This document shows, one piece after another, positions 1,597-29,367 of a stretch of DNA of 31,578 nucleotides. This DNA comes from a virus: positions 21,820-53,397 of IMG/VR virus record IMGVR_UViG_3300030099_000192. One strand, written 5' to 3'. Every line of letters begins with the position of its first letter. Positions within the stretch are counted from its first letter, which is position 1. The notes under the pieces are model-generated. The model saw nothing but the letters and a program-made list of their open reading frames with translations. It made no database searches and had not been told where the DNA came from. A program made the position numbers and the translations under genes.

Positions 1597-1806
1597 TTAT
1601 TCTTTTTCACTCCATCCTTCTGCCTTCATAGCATTCTCTACTTCCAATAAAGAAAACTTTCTACCGTAACGGGCTTCAACTGCTGCTCGCACGTAAAAGA
1701 CATCACTATGGGGAATATGTAATTTATCTAAATTGCCTTTAGCTAAACCATCGTAGAAAGCTTCGATGACATTATCTGTGTATAGTTTTACGGATTTCCT
1801 TGCCAT
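1597..1806 (-). CDS. Hypothetical small phage protein, first gene of leftward unit, 69 aa
   Basis: The ATG at 1806 is preferred over an upstream in-frame GTG at 1815, because the Shine-Dalgarno AAAAAAGGTG lies about 7 bases before the ATG but would abut the GTG. The sequence has a segment HSDVFYVRAAVEARYGRKFS and a C-terminus EVENAMKAEGWSEKE, a helical pattern seen in small conserved phage proteins of unknown function. As the first gene after the perfect leftward promoter and operator-like repeats it could be a regulator (inference from position only). Confidence 0.75.
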   Translation of the reverse strand: MARKSVKLYTDNVIEAFYDGLAKGNLDKLHIPHSDVFYVRAAVEARYGRKFSLLEVENAMKAEGWSEKE

Positions 1807-1833
1807 TGTCAACACCTTTTTTCTCTAGCACGG

Positions 1834-1926
1834 AAATAACACTTAATGTGTTATGCGACTTCTCATTTAAATGTACATTTAAGTGTATTTATAGTATAAC
1901 TAAATAACACTTAACTGTTACAGTTA
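1834..1926. repeat. Cluster of operator-like repeats in the leftward leader
   Basis: The 13-base word AAATAACACTTAA occurs at 1834-1846 and 1902-1914 in direct orientation. A one-base-shorter inverted copy (AAATACACTTAA on the minus strand) lies at 1879-1890. Interleaved are three dyads: TAACAC-5-GTGTTA (1837-1853), the perfect 12-base palindrome AAATGTACATTT (1869-1880) and TAACTG-TTA-CAGTTA (1912-1926). This density, immediately downstream of the predicted start site, looks like a multi-site repressor operator or an iteron array. Confidence 0.65.
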
Positions 1927-1953
1927 TACTGTGGGGGCATTCTGTTATATATA

Positions 1954-1982
1954 ATTATACTCCATAATGAGATAGCTGTCAA
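1954..1982 (-). promoter_or_regulatory. Perfect sigma-70 consensus promoter, leftward
   Basis: On the minus strand the -35 hexamer TTGACA (1982-1977) is followed by exactly 17 bases and the -10 hexamer TATAAT (1959-1954), matching consensus at all twelve positions. Transcription would start near 1947 and leave a leader of about 140 bases before the ATG at 1806. No phage RNA polymerase gene is seen in the window, so recognition by host sigma-70 polymerase is expected. The operator-like repeats at 1834-1926 lie just downstream of the start site. Confidence 0.85.
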
Positions 1983-2492
1983 GCATTAATTTACATGTGC
2001 ATAATATTTGTGCAAGTGTCTATATATAAGGCAATATGTAAAGTGGTTAACAGATAAAAAACCTAATCTGTGTATTTATTCAAGCACATAACGCATACAC
2101 CCCCCAGTGGCACACGCCCATACCCCCATATGTGTGCGTCAGATGCATGCAGACGCATGTATTTGTGCGCTGGTGTGAGCAAATGCGTAGGCATGTGACA
2201 CCAAAGCTCGCTCAAGTGCTTGTATTTGTGAGCTTTTGTGATGTGTGGCAAGTGTTATGTCATCAGTTGCCATTGTTACACCCTACCCCAAACACAAAAT
2301 ATGCACCACTACCCCATGTTGCAGTGGCGGAGCATATACCCTACCACCAACCTCGCATGCACACACGAGTTTCGCACACGAACTTCAGAAGCTACGCTTC
2401 TTGCAGTCGCACAGGAAACGACCCACGCAGAGGATAGCGCACGAGGAAACCGAATCACCCTATACTTATGTTGTTTTAGTGTTACGAGAAAA

Positions 2493-2522
2493 ATATATCT
2501 CATATACTTATGAGAGATATAT
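2493..2522 (+). promoter_or_regulatory. Hairpin/dyad ahead of the first rightward gene
   Basis: TCTCATA (2498-2504) and TATGAGA (2509-2515) pair around a TACT loop. The outer arms ATATATCTC (2493-2501) and GATATAT extend the stem past a two-base bulge. The word TATACTTATG within the dyad also occurs at 2461-2470, 42 bases upstream. A weak promoter can be drawn (TTGTTT 2471-2476, 17 bases, TATATC 2494-2499). Likely an operator or leader structure controlling the early block; the exact promoter is uncertain. Confidence 0.45.
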
Positions 2523-2557
2523 TGTTTCTCTTTAACACACAACATAAGGATAAGAAG

Positions 2558-3100
2558 ATGACAAACACAAAAACACAAACTTTCTCCGAGAAGCTTGCTT
2601 CTGCTTTCAACACTCTTGAGACAAGAGGTCAAGTCATTGCGAAAGAGTACAAGGTACTCACCAATGCTGAAAAGCATCTAGCAAAACGTAATAACGTTTT
2701 CGATACGGCTCTTGGCGAACTTATGTTCGAACTCAAGTGCGAAGCTGATGGCAAGCGTATTCCAACCTCTAGGTTGCAAGATTGTGGTATTCACAATATC
2801 CCAAAGCAACGCAGAGCAGATGCTCTGTTCTATGTCGAGAACAAGTCGGAGTGCGACAAGGTTGCCGAATCCTCAGAGAAAGGATTCACAAACATGAACG
2901 CTCTCGTGAAAGCCACGCAGAAAGCTCGCAAGGCTGAAGCCAAGTCCGACATAGGACTAACGGCTGAACAGATTGTTGAGCAAGCTCTTGCGAAGTGCGA
3001 CAAGCACAACGTGAGCCGTGAGCAACTGTTGCTTGCATTGCGAGATGCGTTAGCACCCAAAGCTGACACTCAGCCAACACAACTTGCCAAAGTTGCCTAA
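2558..3100 (+). CDS. Hypothetical early protein, 180 aa, first rightward gene
   Basis: The ATG at 2558 is chosen because AAGGA lies seven bases upstream; a longer reading from 2510 starts inside the leader hairpin. The product is charged and helical, without membrane segments, with a C-terminal segment DIGLTAEQIVEQALAK followed by VSREQLLLALRDAL that could form a helical DNA- or protein-binding bundle. Being the first gene of the early block it may act on host takeover or regulation, but no family was recognised. One copy of the AGTCC/GGACT palindrome lies inside it (2942-2959, coding KSDIGL). It is stop-start coupled to the next gene. Confidence 0.8.
   Translation: MTNTKTQTFSEKLASAFNTLETRGQVIAKEYKVLTNAEKHLAKRNNVFDTALGELMFELKCEADGKRIPTSRLQDCGIHNIPKQRRADALFYVENKSECDKVAESSEKGFTNMNALVKATQKARKAEAKSDIGLTAEQIVEQALAKCDKHNVSREQLLLALRDALAPKADTQPTQLAKVA
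2942..2959 (+). repeat. Palindromic repeat copy 1 (AAGTCC-GACATA-GGACTA)
   Basis: Arms AGTCC (2943-2947) and GGACT (2954-2958) flank a six-base loop. It lies inside the first early gene and is read as KSDIGL. It is related to copies at 3588, 4029 (inverted) and 5517. Confidence 0.5.
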
Positions 3101-21030: not shown

Positions 21031-24000
21031 AATTTACCTAAGTCAATTGCTCGTTTGTAGTGATTAACATTTGGCTCTTCCCTAACCATTTCTATTACAG
21101 ACTTACCATACTTAGTCATGTAATACTCGTCAGCTAATCTTGTTTGAATATCAGTTAGCTTACCATATTGCGCCCTATCAAAAGGTGTAAACGATTTCTC
21201 ACCTTTCATAGCTTCTGTTTCAGCTTCCATAACGGCAAGCTCTTTCGCAAACAGTCGCAATACTTTCATATCTCTCTTCAACATACCGCGCTTTTGTGTA
21301 TCAGTCGCATTAATGTATGCATCAGATTGCACAAGCTCTGATATATCTCTTTCAACAAAAGGTCCTAGATGTTTCTTCACAAGAGCATCGGCTGTTTTGT
21401 CACCAGAGTTAGGAACTAATGTAAATGTTTTGATACCTAGTCGTGCAAATTCTTCTTCTGCAGGATTACGTCTTGGTTCTCTACGTGGCATACCTATCTG
21501 TCCTAGCAATGGACTCTGACGATAGATGTCACCTTCTCGTGTTGGACTTTCTATTGGCGGTAAGCCTTTAGATAAGCTAGGTAAATCTTTATATAATGTA
21601 TTATCAAAAGCTGACTTAGCTCTCTCTGCAAAACCTATGCCTTCTGTTTGTTTAGCATCACGTACTACAGCAGCTTCTGTATCGTAGGCAGCTTGTATAT
21701 CTCGCACGATACGCAATGGTGTGGCATATCCACCTGTAAGTTCCGCAGCGTAGCCACCCAACAACTCTCCCATTCTTTCTTGTCTTATAGGGTCGCCTTT
21801 ACCTATCTCTGAAATAAGCTGTTCTGCATTGTCAAGAATGTAAGAACTTGCACCAGTTCTAAACTGAAATCCTGTAAAGGCTTCTGCAACTTCTTTGAAA
21901 TTAATCTTATCAGTATCACCAGATGTATGCTTTACCCATAAATCTGCTATAGCTAAGTACGGTACGAGAGGAAAGAAAGGACGTAAATCGCCTGTCGTTC
22001 CATCTGCGTTTTTATATTCATAGAAGTTTATATCTTGGTTATTACTACGATATTGTATTGCAGCATAAAAAGCAGCCGCTCCTACTGTAGCTTTAGAGAA
22101 ACCATCACGTGCTTCTGCTAGTTGTTGACTTGCTTTATCTGATAGTGCCTTGCCTACCTTTGCATCCTCTGCTGCCTTTGAAAGCACTTTTGTGTGAGCT
22201 GCTTGGGCAGTTCTATAGATAGCATTCACAGAGCTTAACGGTGAGTAATTATACTGAAACTGTAATGCATTTACCATAAACCTAGCAAATGGCATAGCTG
22301 CCGTACCGACTGGGGCAGGCACAGGACCTATAGCTTCTGTAAATTTAATAAAGTGATGACCTACTGTTCCTTTTTGTGGCATCAATGAGAATGTAAAAGA
22401 TAGAGATTCTTCTACAGAATCAGACAATACTTTTGCTGGTAGGGATTTACCTGACGCTATAAACTCTTCCAAGTTCTTAAACTGATTAGCGTTGGTAGGT
22501 TTCTCTACAATAATACCCGCACGTCTAAGTTTCTTATCTATACTGTTTGTAAAGATAGCACGTCTGAAAAAGATATCTTGAGCAATGTTTAACCCATTCA
22601 TAGTACGAGTAAAAGCACTTAGACTTTCATCATCTGTTGCTTCTTGAAGTGTTCTGTCCATACGACTCGCAAGACGTGAGTTATGTTTTAGCAATGCTTC
22701 TGATAATTCCGCAGTGTCAACAACTTGTCTTAGTCTATTTAATCGTCCAAAGCTATCACGAATAATCTCTTTATAACTAAAACCTGTACTGCTTAGTGGC
22801 ATGTTGCCCGTCATAGCAGCATTGAAACCTTTACCCAACTGAAAGATAGTGCTTTCCATAGCATCAGATGTACTTTCCATACCTAAACGTATAGCACCTG
22901 TAGCTACGTTACGTACTGTTGTAGCTATCTGTGTAACCATCAAGGCACGTCTTTCACGGTCAAGTCTATTCATGACCTCGTGTGCTTTACTAAAAAAGCC
23001 TTGTCCGACATCAGACTTGCTACTCTGCATGAGTATAGCTTTTAATTCTGGGTCAACCTCTCCAAGACCTTTGATAATCTTTCCAACATTACTTGCAGTA
23101 TTTAAGAATTTACCAGCATCACTATAAGATACACCCATAGCATTTACAAACTGCTTATTAGTTAGTCCTGCACGAGAAATAGCAGCTTCTAGTGTGTCAC
23201 CACTAAACTCTCCTATCTCTTTTAAGATACCTTCTTTACCTGTTAATAGCTGTTCTGTCTGTTTCTTTATAGCATCCGCAGATTTACCTTCAGCTTTCGC
23301 TAAAGAGTCTTGTACAAGTTTACCAATAACCTCTGAAGCTTTTGTATCTTCATCAACTATCTGTCCTAACCTACCATCTGTAGCCATTTCCTCTACAGTA
23401 TCAGTAACTACTTTACCAACACGCTTCATCAGTTCAGTATTAAATTGCATCTGCGCCATGAAGTCAGCATCATCAGATATTGTGCCTAACTTATCTAATG
23501 TTTCACGACCTTCTTTTATATCAAATATACCTGTCGCAGTTTGTGTTGTTGTTTCATCACTAGCTTTAGTAGATAAACTTGCATTACGAGCATCTAATGC
23601 TTCTTTAATCTTCTTTTGTTTTGCTACAGCTTCTGTAGCATTGTTAACTAGTTTCTCTCCGCCTAAACCGCCAGATAATTTAGCACCTATAGCACCTATA
23701 CCTAAACCTACTCCACCAGCAATGCCAGCTCGTCTATAATCATAGTCTTCGGCTGTATATTCACCTTTTTTCTCAGATAACATCTCTAGCTCTTGCAGTT
23801 TTAAATCTTGCACAGCTGCAACACCTGCTTCTGCTACAATGCCACCACCAATAATCTTACCAGTTTTACCTCTAAATATTCCTTTTGAACCATATTTAGC
23901 AGCTTCTTGTAAGGCAGCTTTCTTGCCACCTTCCTTTAGTGCTTTAATAATACCACGAACAGCCACTTGTTTTGCAACTGCACCTGCACCAAATCCAATA

Positions 24001-26942: not shown

Positions 26943-29367
26943 GTTTGCTCCTCTTCTTATTTATAATATAATCCATAAACTGTTTTGTTGCCCACTTAAA
27001 TAGTGGCTTATCGGAAATAAACTTAGCGTATTGTTTACCATATTTACCATATAGTTTCTTAAACCATTTAGGTGCATCATGTTGTAGCCACAAGCGAAAC
27101 ATAAACCACTCAGGATTACCTTTACCATATACCTCTCTTGCCACCCAACAAAGAATCCAAGCACTACCGAGTGTACCAATTAATTGTCCAACAGCATTAC
27201 CTGCCGCAGTAGATGCTTGTTCATCTGCTATTTCTTTTCTAGCTGTTGCATCTAGTTCAGCAATAGCCATAGCACTAATTCTATCTTGTGCATTTTCGGC
27301 TGAAGTCCATGCCCACTCCATACTATCACCATAAAACTGCCACAAGTTAGCATAAGCTTGATTGGATATATTTAACATAGCTGTTGCATTAAGTTCATTG
27401 GCTCTGTTAATGGCAGCTGTATCGGCTGTTGCTATTTGTCTTCGCCACGTAGCATTACTTTGTGCAATAACTAATTGGTTTTGTGCATTGAATTGGTCAC
27501 GTTGATTATTTAATTCGGCATTAAATCTTTCAACAACATTTTGTTGACCAGCATTATACTGTGACTGTGCATTTGCTTGTGTAGCATTAAACTGTGATAT
27601 GTTGTTGGCAAGATTTGCCATAAATGTATTTGTTTGATTTTCAGATGAAGCATTAAACTGACTTGCAGCATTGAGAGATGCTTGGTCAGATAACAACGCT
27701 TGCGCTGTTTGTTGTGCTTTCAACAAAGATGTTTGCTGTGTATTTGAAAGATTAGCCATATCCATTTGTAGAAAGGCTTGTGCATTCATAACAGCAGCTT
27801 GTTGTGTGTTACTTAAATTTTGTGAATCTAATTGTGCTAACGATGCAGCTTCTGCCATCACAAGAGCTTGTGAGTTAGATAAGTTTTGCAAGTTCATTGT
27901 GTTTGCAATCTTACTATTCTCTAAGGCAACTTGTTGTTGAGCCGTAAAGTTCATATTGGCTATGTCAGATATCTTAGATGCATTCATTACACGAGATTGG
28001 AACTCTTGTGTAAAGTCCATTTCTAAAAACTTAGCACGTTGCTCTGCGGCCATCATGGCAGCTTGCTGTCTATTTGATAAGTTCTGACGCTCAAAGCTTG
28101 CAGTCATAGATGCGTCTGCTTGTGCAATAGGTAATGCAGATTCTAAAGCTGCTTGTACAAGAGCTTGTCCAGCAATAGACGATGCACCTAATCCACGTTG
28201 TGCAAGTTTAGCATTGACACCTCTTAATGCTCCTGCTGCCCAAGCTGGTGGATTTTTTAAATCAAAGTTATCTGTGAGGTCTGCCATCTGCCCTTGAACA
28301 GTAGCTTGCTCTGATGGTGTAGCTGTAGCAGCTTGTACTTGTGCAGTAACTTGCTCTACCTTTGAAGCATCCACAGCACTACCGCTAATTAATTCACCCT
28401 CTTGAATTTCTCTTTGCTGTGGATTGTTCATTAGAATAGCAGTGCCTTGTGCTTCTTCTAATTTACCTACAGATGATTCAGTTGTTTGAGCAGCTTGTAC
28501 TTGAGCATCTTCACTCACTTCACCTTGAGCCGCTTGCAGATTTTCTTGCTCTGCTTTCATTGCTTCAGTTACAGTAGCAGCTTGTATTTGGGCAGCTTGA
28601 ACTTGTTGTGGTTGCGCGGCTTGGGTAGTTGTTGCTTGTGCTGTTGGAATAGCAAGTGAACCAGATACTTGACCTACATCTGGACTAATTAATTGGTCTT
28701 GCGATTGTATAGTGCCTTGTGCTTGTACAGCAGCTCCGGGTGCTAATCCGGGATTTTGTAACATAGATGTTGTTACATCCCCTACGGACATACCCTCTGT
28801 AAAAGCTTGCCCATAAACAGGAGCTTGAGCAGCAACAGGCGCAATAGTTGGTGTAGATATTGGAGGACCTGTGGGTGTTGAAGGTGGTAATGAAGACCCT
28901 TGGTTTTGAAATTGTGATGGTGTAGAGGTTGTTGGTGTTGTTGTTACAGTTGGTTCAGGTGGAGTTGCTGCAATCATAGGCTGTGGTGGTGCAGTCATTA
29001 CGGGTGGTGCTACAAATGTAGGCTGTGTCATATCACTTGGTGGTGGTCCTCCACCAGACATCACACCCAAATTTTGTGGTGGTATTGATGCTCCACCAAA
29101 TCCCATGCTCATGTTTGGGGGTGGTAATCCTACTCCTCCACCACCTTCGATGGGCATAGTTTCAAGTGGCATACCACCATTGCTAAACTTACGTACCATA
29201 CCACCTTTTGCCATCTTCTTTGCAGCGGTGGTGTATTGTTGCATTTGTTTTTTACGAGTTTCATCACCTTCGACAAACTCTTTAAATTTAGACATGTCGC
29301 CTTTATAACCCATTGCACCTGCAATTTTATTTAGTGCATTAGGTTTAAATCCTTTGAATTGTAACAT
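26926..29367 (-). CDS. Repeat-rich virion protein with NLSNxQQ units, 813 aa
   Basis: Four zones are visible. Residues 1-70 are basic with MAKGGMVRKFSNGGMP. Residues 70-170 are Pro/Gly/Thr-rich. Residues 170-370 are Gln/Ala-rich and low in complexity (VQAAQIQAATV). Residues about 425-640 are helical with imperfect units of roughly 20-25 residues containing NLSNxQ(Q) (at least four copies) and later FNAxxxNxxxQFNA variants. The last 80 residues are a distinct aromatic/basic domain (CWVAREVYGKGNPEWF, APKWFKKLYGKYG) that I recall at the C-terminus of other marine phage virion proteins. A long fibrous tail or internal protein is likely. Confidence 0.8.
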   Translation of the reverse strand: MLQFKGFKPNALNKIAGAMGYKGDMSKFKEFVEGDETRKKQMQQYTTAAKKMAKGGMVRKFSNGGMPLETMPIEGGGGVGLPPPNMSMGFGGASIPPQNLGVMSGGGPPPSDMTQPTFVAPPVMTAPPQPMIAATPPEPTVTTTPTTSTPSQFQNQGSSLPPSTPTGPPISTPTIAPVAAQAPVYGQAFTEGMSVGDVTTSMLQNPGLAPGAAVQAQGTIQSQDQLISPDVGQVSGSLAIPTAQATTTQAAQPQQVQAAQIQAATVTEAMKAEQENLQAAQGEVSEDAQVQAAQTTESSVGKLEEAQGTAILMNNPQQREIQEGELISGSAVDASKVEQVTAQVQAATATPSEQATVQGQMADLTDNFDLKNPPAWAAGALRGVNAKLAQRGLGASSIAGQALVQAALESALPIAQADASMTASFERQNLSNRQQAAMMAAEQRAKFLEMDFTQEFQSRVMNASKISDIANMNFTAQQQVALENSKIANTMNLQNLSNSQALVMAEAASLAQLDSQNLSNTQQAAVMNAQAFLQMDMANLSNTQQTSLLKAQQTAQALLSDQASLNAASQFNASSENQTNTFMANLANNISQFNATQANAQSQYNAGQQNVVERFNAELNNQRDQFNAQNQLVIAQSNATWRRQIATADTAAINRANELNATAMLNISNQAYANLWQFYGDSMEWAWTSAENAQDRISAMAIAELDATARKEIADEQASTAAGNAVGQLIGTLGSAWILCWVAREVYGKGNPEWFMFRLWLQHDAPKWFKKLYGKYGKQYAKFISDKPLFKWATKQFMDYIINKKRSKHVQFV

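Follow-up and report, generated by a model that had tools for sequence, protein, structure and literature searches.

The window analysed here is a stretch of 31,578 nucleotides covering positions 21,820–53,397 of a 53.4-kb virus record. Its DNA polymerase shares 72% identity with that of the SAR116 phage HMO-2011 and 69% with that of roseophage CRP-345, and on sequence grounds the phage is of the HMO-2011 type, a group for which the relatives compared have alphaproteobacterial hosts. As in HMO-2011, a single intergenic region separates two divergent blocks: the replication block runs rightward, and the leftward block begins, in HMO-2011, with small genes of unknown function followed by the lysozyme, terminase and virion genes. 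A promoter and an array of short operator-like sites form the head of this leftward, mainly structural, gene block. The leftward unit opens with the gene for a 69-aa protein without known family (positions 1597–1806, minus strand), which is modeled as three helices (pLDDT 70) and is the first gene downstream of the leftward promoter in the relatives examined. The divergent rightward unit opens with the gene for a variable 180-aa protein (2558–3100, plus strand), whose model is all-helical and which is considered below as a candidate array binder. The phage also encodes a tyrosine integrase, about 8 kb from the array, and no tRNA was found in the window.

Relatives were gathered with the 69-aa protein in four IMG/VR scans, each listing at most 80 loci of several hundred matches, and removal of identical leaders left 141 distinct leaders among the matches listed. 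Some of the IMG/VR loci are redundant and some are fragments; non-redundancy was set by shared k-mers, without a tree.

The leftward promoter lies on the minus strand at 1982–1954. Its −35 hexamer TTGACA (1977–1982) and −10 hexamer TATAAT (1954–1959) are exact matches separated by a 17-bp spacer, so that all twelve consensus bases are present, as the initial annotation had reported. This is the sole exact TTGACA-17-TATAAT in the 31,578 bases, compared with 0.02 expected from shuffles. Both hexamers recur in the leaders of relatives: among the matches listed, a 12/12 promoter is found in 101 of 141 distinct leaders, 95 of these with 17-bp spacing, and a promoter of at least 11/12 in 129 of 141. 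Selecting promoters by score inflates this hexamer conservation; the flanks were not used in the selection. Directly before the −10 hexamer, most relatives carry the extended −10 trinucleotide TGG (GAG in the window), and just 3′ of it a box with the family consensus TATRTATAAC, here TATATATAACA (1943–1953, minus strand), shows positional conservation across 49 non-redundant promoters. The distance from the promoter to the start codon of the 69-aa gene ranges from 89 to 306 bp across the 141 leaders. Because this distance varies while the promoter stays, its conservation does not simply reflect recent common descent. The closest relative among the matches listed, L298, is 77% identical here and keeps a 12/12 promoter with a different spacer. 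With its −35 and −10 elements 16–18 bp apart, a spacing kept in relatives, the leftward promoter is by its sequence of the host sigma-70 type, and transcription is predicted to start near 1947, about 7 bp past the −10 hexamer.

Several further promoter-like features were observed. A second 12/12 promoter lies at position 31754 of HMO-2011 (L087), within the structural block and without an operator array. The more distant CRP-207, CRP-603 and CRP-2 (L091, L092 and L096) have promoters of 10/12, 11/12 and 12/12, respectively, with long leaders that carry different repeats (e.g. GTTAAACATTAATGTTAAAAC) and CTCCTC runs before the same 69-aa gene. In the window (1806–1813, minus strand; CTTGACAATG) and in relatives, TTGACA nearly always directly precedes the 69-aa start codon, where a clear Shine–Dalgarno sequence is often absent. 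A rightward promoter sharing the array was also considered and rejected, as the upstream region has no conserved strong rightward sigma-70 promoter.

The array occupies the transcribed leader, downstream of the promoter and not upstream of it, and is built from pseudo-palindromes of 10–11 bp such as CACTTAAGTG and CACTTTAAGTG. The window leader contains six CA-N-core-N-TG pseudo-palindromes, two of them overlapping, compared with 0.42 expected from dinucleotide shuffles. On the minus strand we delineated site S1 (CAGTATAACTG, 11 bp, 1921–1931), whose arms are fully palindromic; S2 (CAGTTAAGTG, 10 bp, 1908–1917), paired with S1 across a 3-bp gap; S3 (TAGTTATACTA, 1892–1902), an 11-bp palindrome of the TAG-arm type found in L012 and L025; S4 (CACTTAAATG, 10 bp, 1876–1885); S5 (CATTTAAATG, 1864–1873), paired with S4 across a 2-bp gap; and S6 (CACATTAAGTG, 11 bp, 1840–1850). 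In L298, site S3 is identical, CACTTAGGTG stands at the place of S6, and most sites are found at corresponding places with changed letters.

The initial annotation had described the array through two direct copies of the 13-mer AAATAACACTTAA (1834–1846 and 1902–1914), an inverted near-copy, TAAATACACTTAA (minus strand, about 1879–1891, about 10 of 13 positions), and the palindrome AAATGTACATTT (1869–1880). All of these are present, but the shorter pseudo-palindromes make the better unit: the 13-mers and AAATGTACATTT represent their shoulders and junctions, AAATGTACATTT being formed where S4 meets S5. Promoter and sites are conserved in relatives; L298 does not preserve the 13-mers themselves. 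The broader proposal of a maximal host sigma-70-type promoter combined with an operator-like array is borne out, both elements being kept in close and distant relatives. The lack of such conservation, which the annotation had named as refuting its reading, was not observed.

Across the family, 38 non-redundant leaders contain 137 sites, compared with 15.8 expected from shuffles, and site density is 5.7 times lower in the 400 bp upstream of the promoter than in the leaders. An EM search started from unrelated seeds arrived de novo at the same motif, at about four per leader. Sites are usually paired, with centres 12–15 bp apart and pairs recurring after 32–49 bp, and among non-redundant promoters the first site usually starts 16–31 bp past the −10 hexamer. 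The HMO-2011 genome has one site cluster only, in the leader. The remainder of the record to which the window belongs has no other site cluster like that of the leader; a three-hit cluster at position 27552 of the window lies within a repetitive coding region.

The arms of the sites carry further information. Among 11-bp sites, 72 of 159 have fully complementary arms, compared with 29.0 ± 4.6 after re-dealing the arms, while the 10-bp sites show weak arm co-variation (37 versus 26.3 ± 4.4) and are asymmetric, mostly CAC..ATG. Arm identity within a phage is 0.466, against 0.364 ± 0.010 by chance, and in some phages whole arrays are of another type, CATTATAAATG or TAGTTTAACTA (the CATTA.. and TAGTT.. 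types). At least three natural site types are known, namely CAC, CAT and TAG. If each phage had one protein, differing in specificity, that read all of its sites, shared arm types within a phage would be expected, and the pattern fits an array read by one sequence-specific DNA-binding protein per phage. A simple symmetric dimer would not explain all sites, because the 10-bp sites are asymmetric and co-vary weakly, and two site lengths (10 and 11 bp) are unusual for one dimer.

Given this arrangement, we consider it probable that the operator array just within the transcript represses or road-blocks the activator-independent promoter of the leftward block. Positions 1982–1806 would then control the leftward block, which is mainly structural. 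The host's RNA polymerase, carrying the main sigma factor, would recognize the full-consensus promoter without needing an activator. The operators, mostly side-by-side pairs, would start about 10 bp within the transcript and would be bound cooperatively by a sequence-specific, probably dimeric protein that blocks promoter escape or elongation. The leftward block would remain off for as long as this protein is neither removed nor overridden nor diluted by replication. The repression or road-block step we infer from the anatomy of the region, since a position past the start suits repression; a dimeric binder, repression and not activation, and a role in timing are likewise inferences. Phages usually delay their late genes by an activator, an antiterminator or a polymerase of their own. 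A promoter matching the full consensus would be expected to fire upon entry, and a block containing late genes needs to be delayed.

Leader arrays could alternatively pause polymerase or serve replication. An RNA leader in the leftward transcript, acting as an attenuator, a pausing signal or an antitermination signal, would agree with the position of the array within a leader of 100–250 nt in most relatives and with a mid-leader CTTTGTTAATAC stretch common to many of them. However, the mean folding z is −1.8 in sense and −2.1 in antisense, with no common fold, 11-bp palindromes, their centre being 1 bp long, are unable to form stable hairpins alone, and no Rfam family was found, riboswitches included; we regard this explanation as quite improbable. 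We give very little credence to an iteron-type replication origin, or integrase arm sites, beside the promoter. The repeats do lie at the divergent junction, and the cumulative G–C skew of HMO-2011 has its minimum here (~53 kb) and peaks close to the convergent junction, but gene direction also explains the skew, no initiator protein was recognized, and the sites are paired pseudo-palindromes, not in-phase direct repeats; nothing points specifically to an iteron origin. For arm sites, the tyrosine integrase speaks in favor, whereas its distance from the array and the lack of a tRNA in the window speak against.

The nearest published case is that of the CtrA-site phage arrays. In other alphaproteobacterial phages, TTAA-N7-TTAA arrays between divergent genes bind CtrA, and a deferral of lysis has been proposed (PMC9437464). 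The gap region of vB_BsubS-Delta resembles our locus in its dense short TTAA sites between divergent phage genes, in the alphaproteobacterial hosts and in the delay of lytic genes proposed there (PMC9437464). A host regulator, most plausibly CtrA, might by this analogy read the present array, given that the hosts are alphaproteobacterial, that TTAA stands at the centre of many sites, and that a phage with such a TTAA-rich divergent gap region has been published (PMC9437464). In contrast to those arrays, the sites here are 10–11-bp pseudo-palindromes with phage-specific arms, and TTAA-N7-TTAA is not enriched: the N7 spacing occurs 8 times, versus 17 for N6, 17 for N8, 19 for N10 and 15 for N11, with N9 also above N7. 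TTAA is moreover not invariant, and strong phage-specific information lies in the arms outside it. A reading by CtrA or another host regulator appears quite unlikely to us.

Other known systems share parts of the preferred repression model. The stoperators of L5-type mycobacteriophages are read by a repressor, asymmetric and spread over the genome (PMC9283540, PMC6550527). They are alike in having many copies of a short site and one phage repressor, with a specificity that drifts between phages, and also in that they can stop elongation inside transcripts. They differ in that the sites here are mainly symmetric and form a single cluster, both in the HMO-2011 genome and in the window's record; in a stoperator-type orientation test, the 11-bp sites were symmetric with co-varying arms and the 10-bp sites were biased to CAC..ATG. 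MetJ, Arc and omega of pSM19035 are ribbon-helix-helix repressors that act on tandem palindrome operators. Those operators are likewise short palindromes lying side by side at a promoter and bound cooperatively there, but differ from the present array, with its centres 12–15 bp apart, and no ribbon-helix-helix protein was recognized among the early and first late genes scanned. The OL/OR regions of lambda combine a strong sigma-70 promoter with several operators in a divergent region, which is where the likeness lies. Unlike in lambda, the operators here are entirely downstream of the start, a CI/Cro-like gene is absent from the early genes scanned, and apart from the integrase nothing points to a lysogeny module. 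We found no mention of such promoters or operators in the literature on the HMO-2011 group that we searched.

These differences bear on the late/lysogeny switch suggested by the initial annotation, of which the lysogeny part is not supported. That no CI-like repressor is recognizable, as the annotation had noted, extends to the early genes scanned with Pfam, PHROGs and NCBIfam, in which neither a CI/Cro-type helix-turn-helix repressor nor another DNA-binding regulator was recognized. A scan of 84,980 genomes for the 69-aa gene returned 5 contigs only, all in metagenome-assembled genomes (MAGs) with implausible taxa. These phage-like contigs (L290–L294), of which two measure 55 and 63 kb, are assigned to MAGs of Bacteroidetes, Flavobacteriales and Neomarinimicrobiota, with two contigs shared by two MAGs, and are probably mis-binned phage contigs. 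Evidence for a prophage or an attP site was sought and set aside, since the genome scan gave such apparently mis-binned contigs and the window holds no tRNA. CRP-3, from a different subgroup, does integrate (PMC6918029).

Among the early proteins scanned against the known families of Pfam, PHROGs and NCBIfam, no DNA-binding regulator was recognized. The 69-aa protein is unlikely to bind the array. Across the family it is 59–81% identical to that of the window, whatever the site type, and its distance is unrelated to arm type (partial r −0.03, p 0.58; 32 non-redundant loci). It was rejected as the specificity determinant because it is near-invariant while the sites change and because site type cannot be predicted from its distance. 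Its AlphaFold model (pLDDT 70) gave no fold match. The 56-aa protein, which the initial annotation had put forward as a possible binder along with the 69-aa and 180-aa proteins, gave no family match.

A more tentative candidate, which we consider possible but somewhat doubtful, is the phage's own 180-aa protein: variable and made early, it would read the operator array and keep the late block off. Arm type tracks the distance between 180-aa proteins (partial r 0.56, p < 1/3000, after control for the 69-aa gene and for 2 kb of flanking sequence; 32 non-redundant loci), although such Mantel-type tests leave some effect of phylogeny in these correlations, and the 69-aa gene, which is nearer to the array, shows no such tracking. 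TAG-type arrays all accompany one 180-aa subtype, SQRxSEAK as opposed to RRRSEA or QRRSEA, and L012 differs from L017 in its sites and its 180-aa protein although their 69-aa proteins are almost the same. The 180-aa model is all-helical with a basic helix (pLDDT 80). It has, however, no significant fold match, several of the weak matches being TetR-type regulators. Once the TAG clade is removed, the correlation is weak (0.20) and equals the genomic background (0.20), and L068 shares its six sites with L166 while their first rightward genes lack detectable N-terminal similarity. The first rightward proteins are modular and without known family, combining shared C-terminal stretches (L068 with L194, L146 with L166) with N-terminal parts that have no detectable similarity. 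The full proposal, that the 180-aa protein is made early, belongs to a new family of helical, modular proteins and represses a maximal host promoter via a co-evolving paired-palindrome array, is speculative and in our judgment doubtful.

At its opposite end, the intergenic region holds a near-perfect hairpin of about 85 nt in the rightward leader (2465–2549, plus strand; z = −7.9). It stands directly before the first rightward gene, as do hairpins in L001, L012, L016, L019, L047, L167, L236, L254, L262, L271 and L276. The hairpins of these relatives differ widely in sequence, many being equally long, with dG of −33 to −44 and z of −5.5 to −12; in L298 the core (2484–2534) is identical. No Rfam family matched the hairpin at threshold. 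It is possibly an RNase III site or a leader RNA of the early block.

Phages of the HMO-2011 type are an abundant group of ocean viruses, and their leftward block is started by a textbook promoter followed by conserved mirror-symmetric sites. A conserved control region with a predicted start and at least three site types makes the question of its control testable and also provides a marker by which the late promoter can readily be recognized in metatranscriptomes. If the proposal for the 180-aa protein is true, the late block would be under a phage-specific, hetero-immunity-like control without a known repressor fold, an undescribed system in a group that ranks among the most abundant marine phages.
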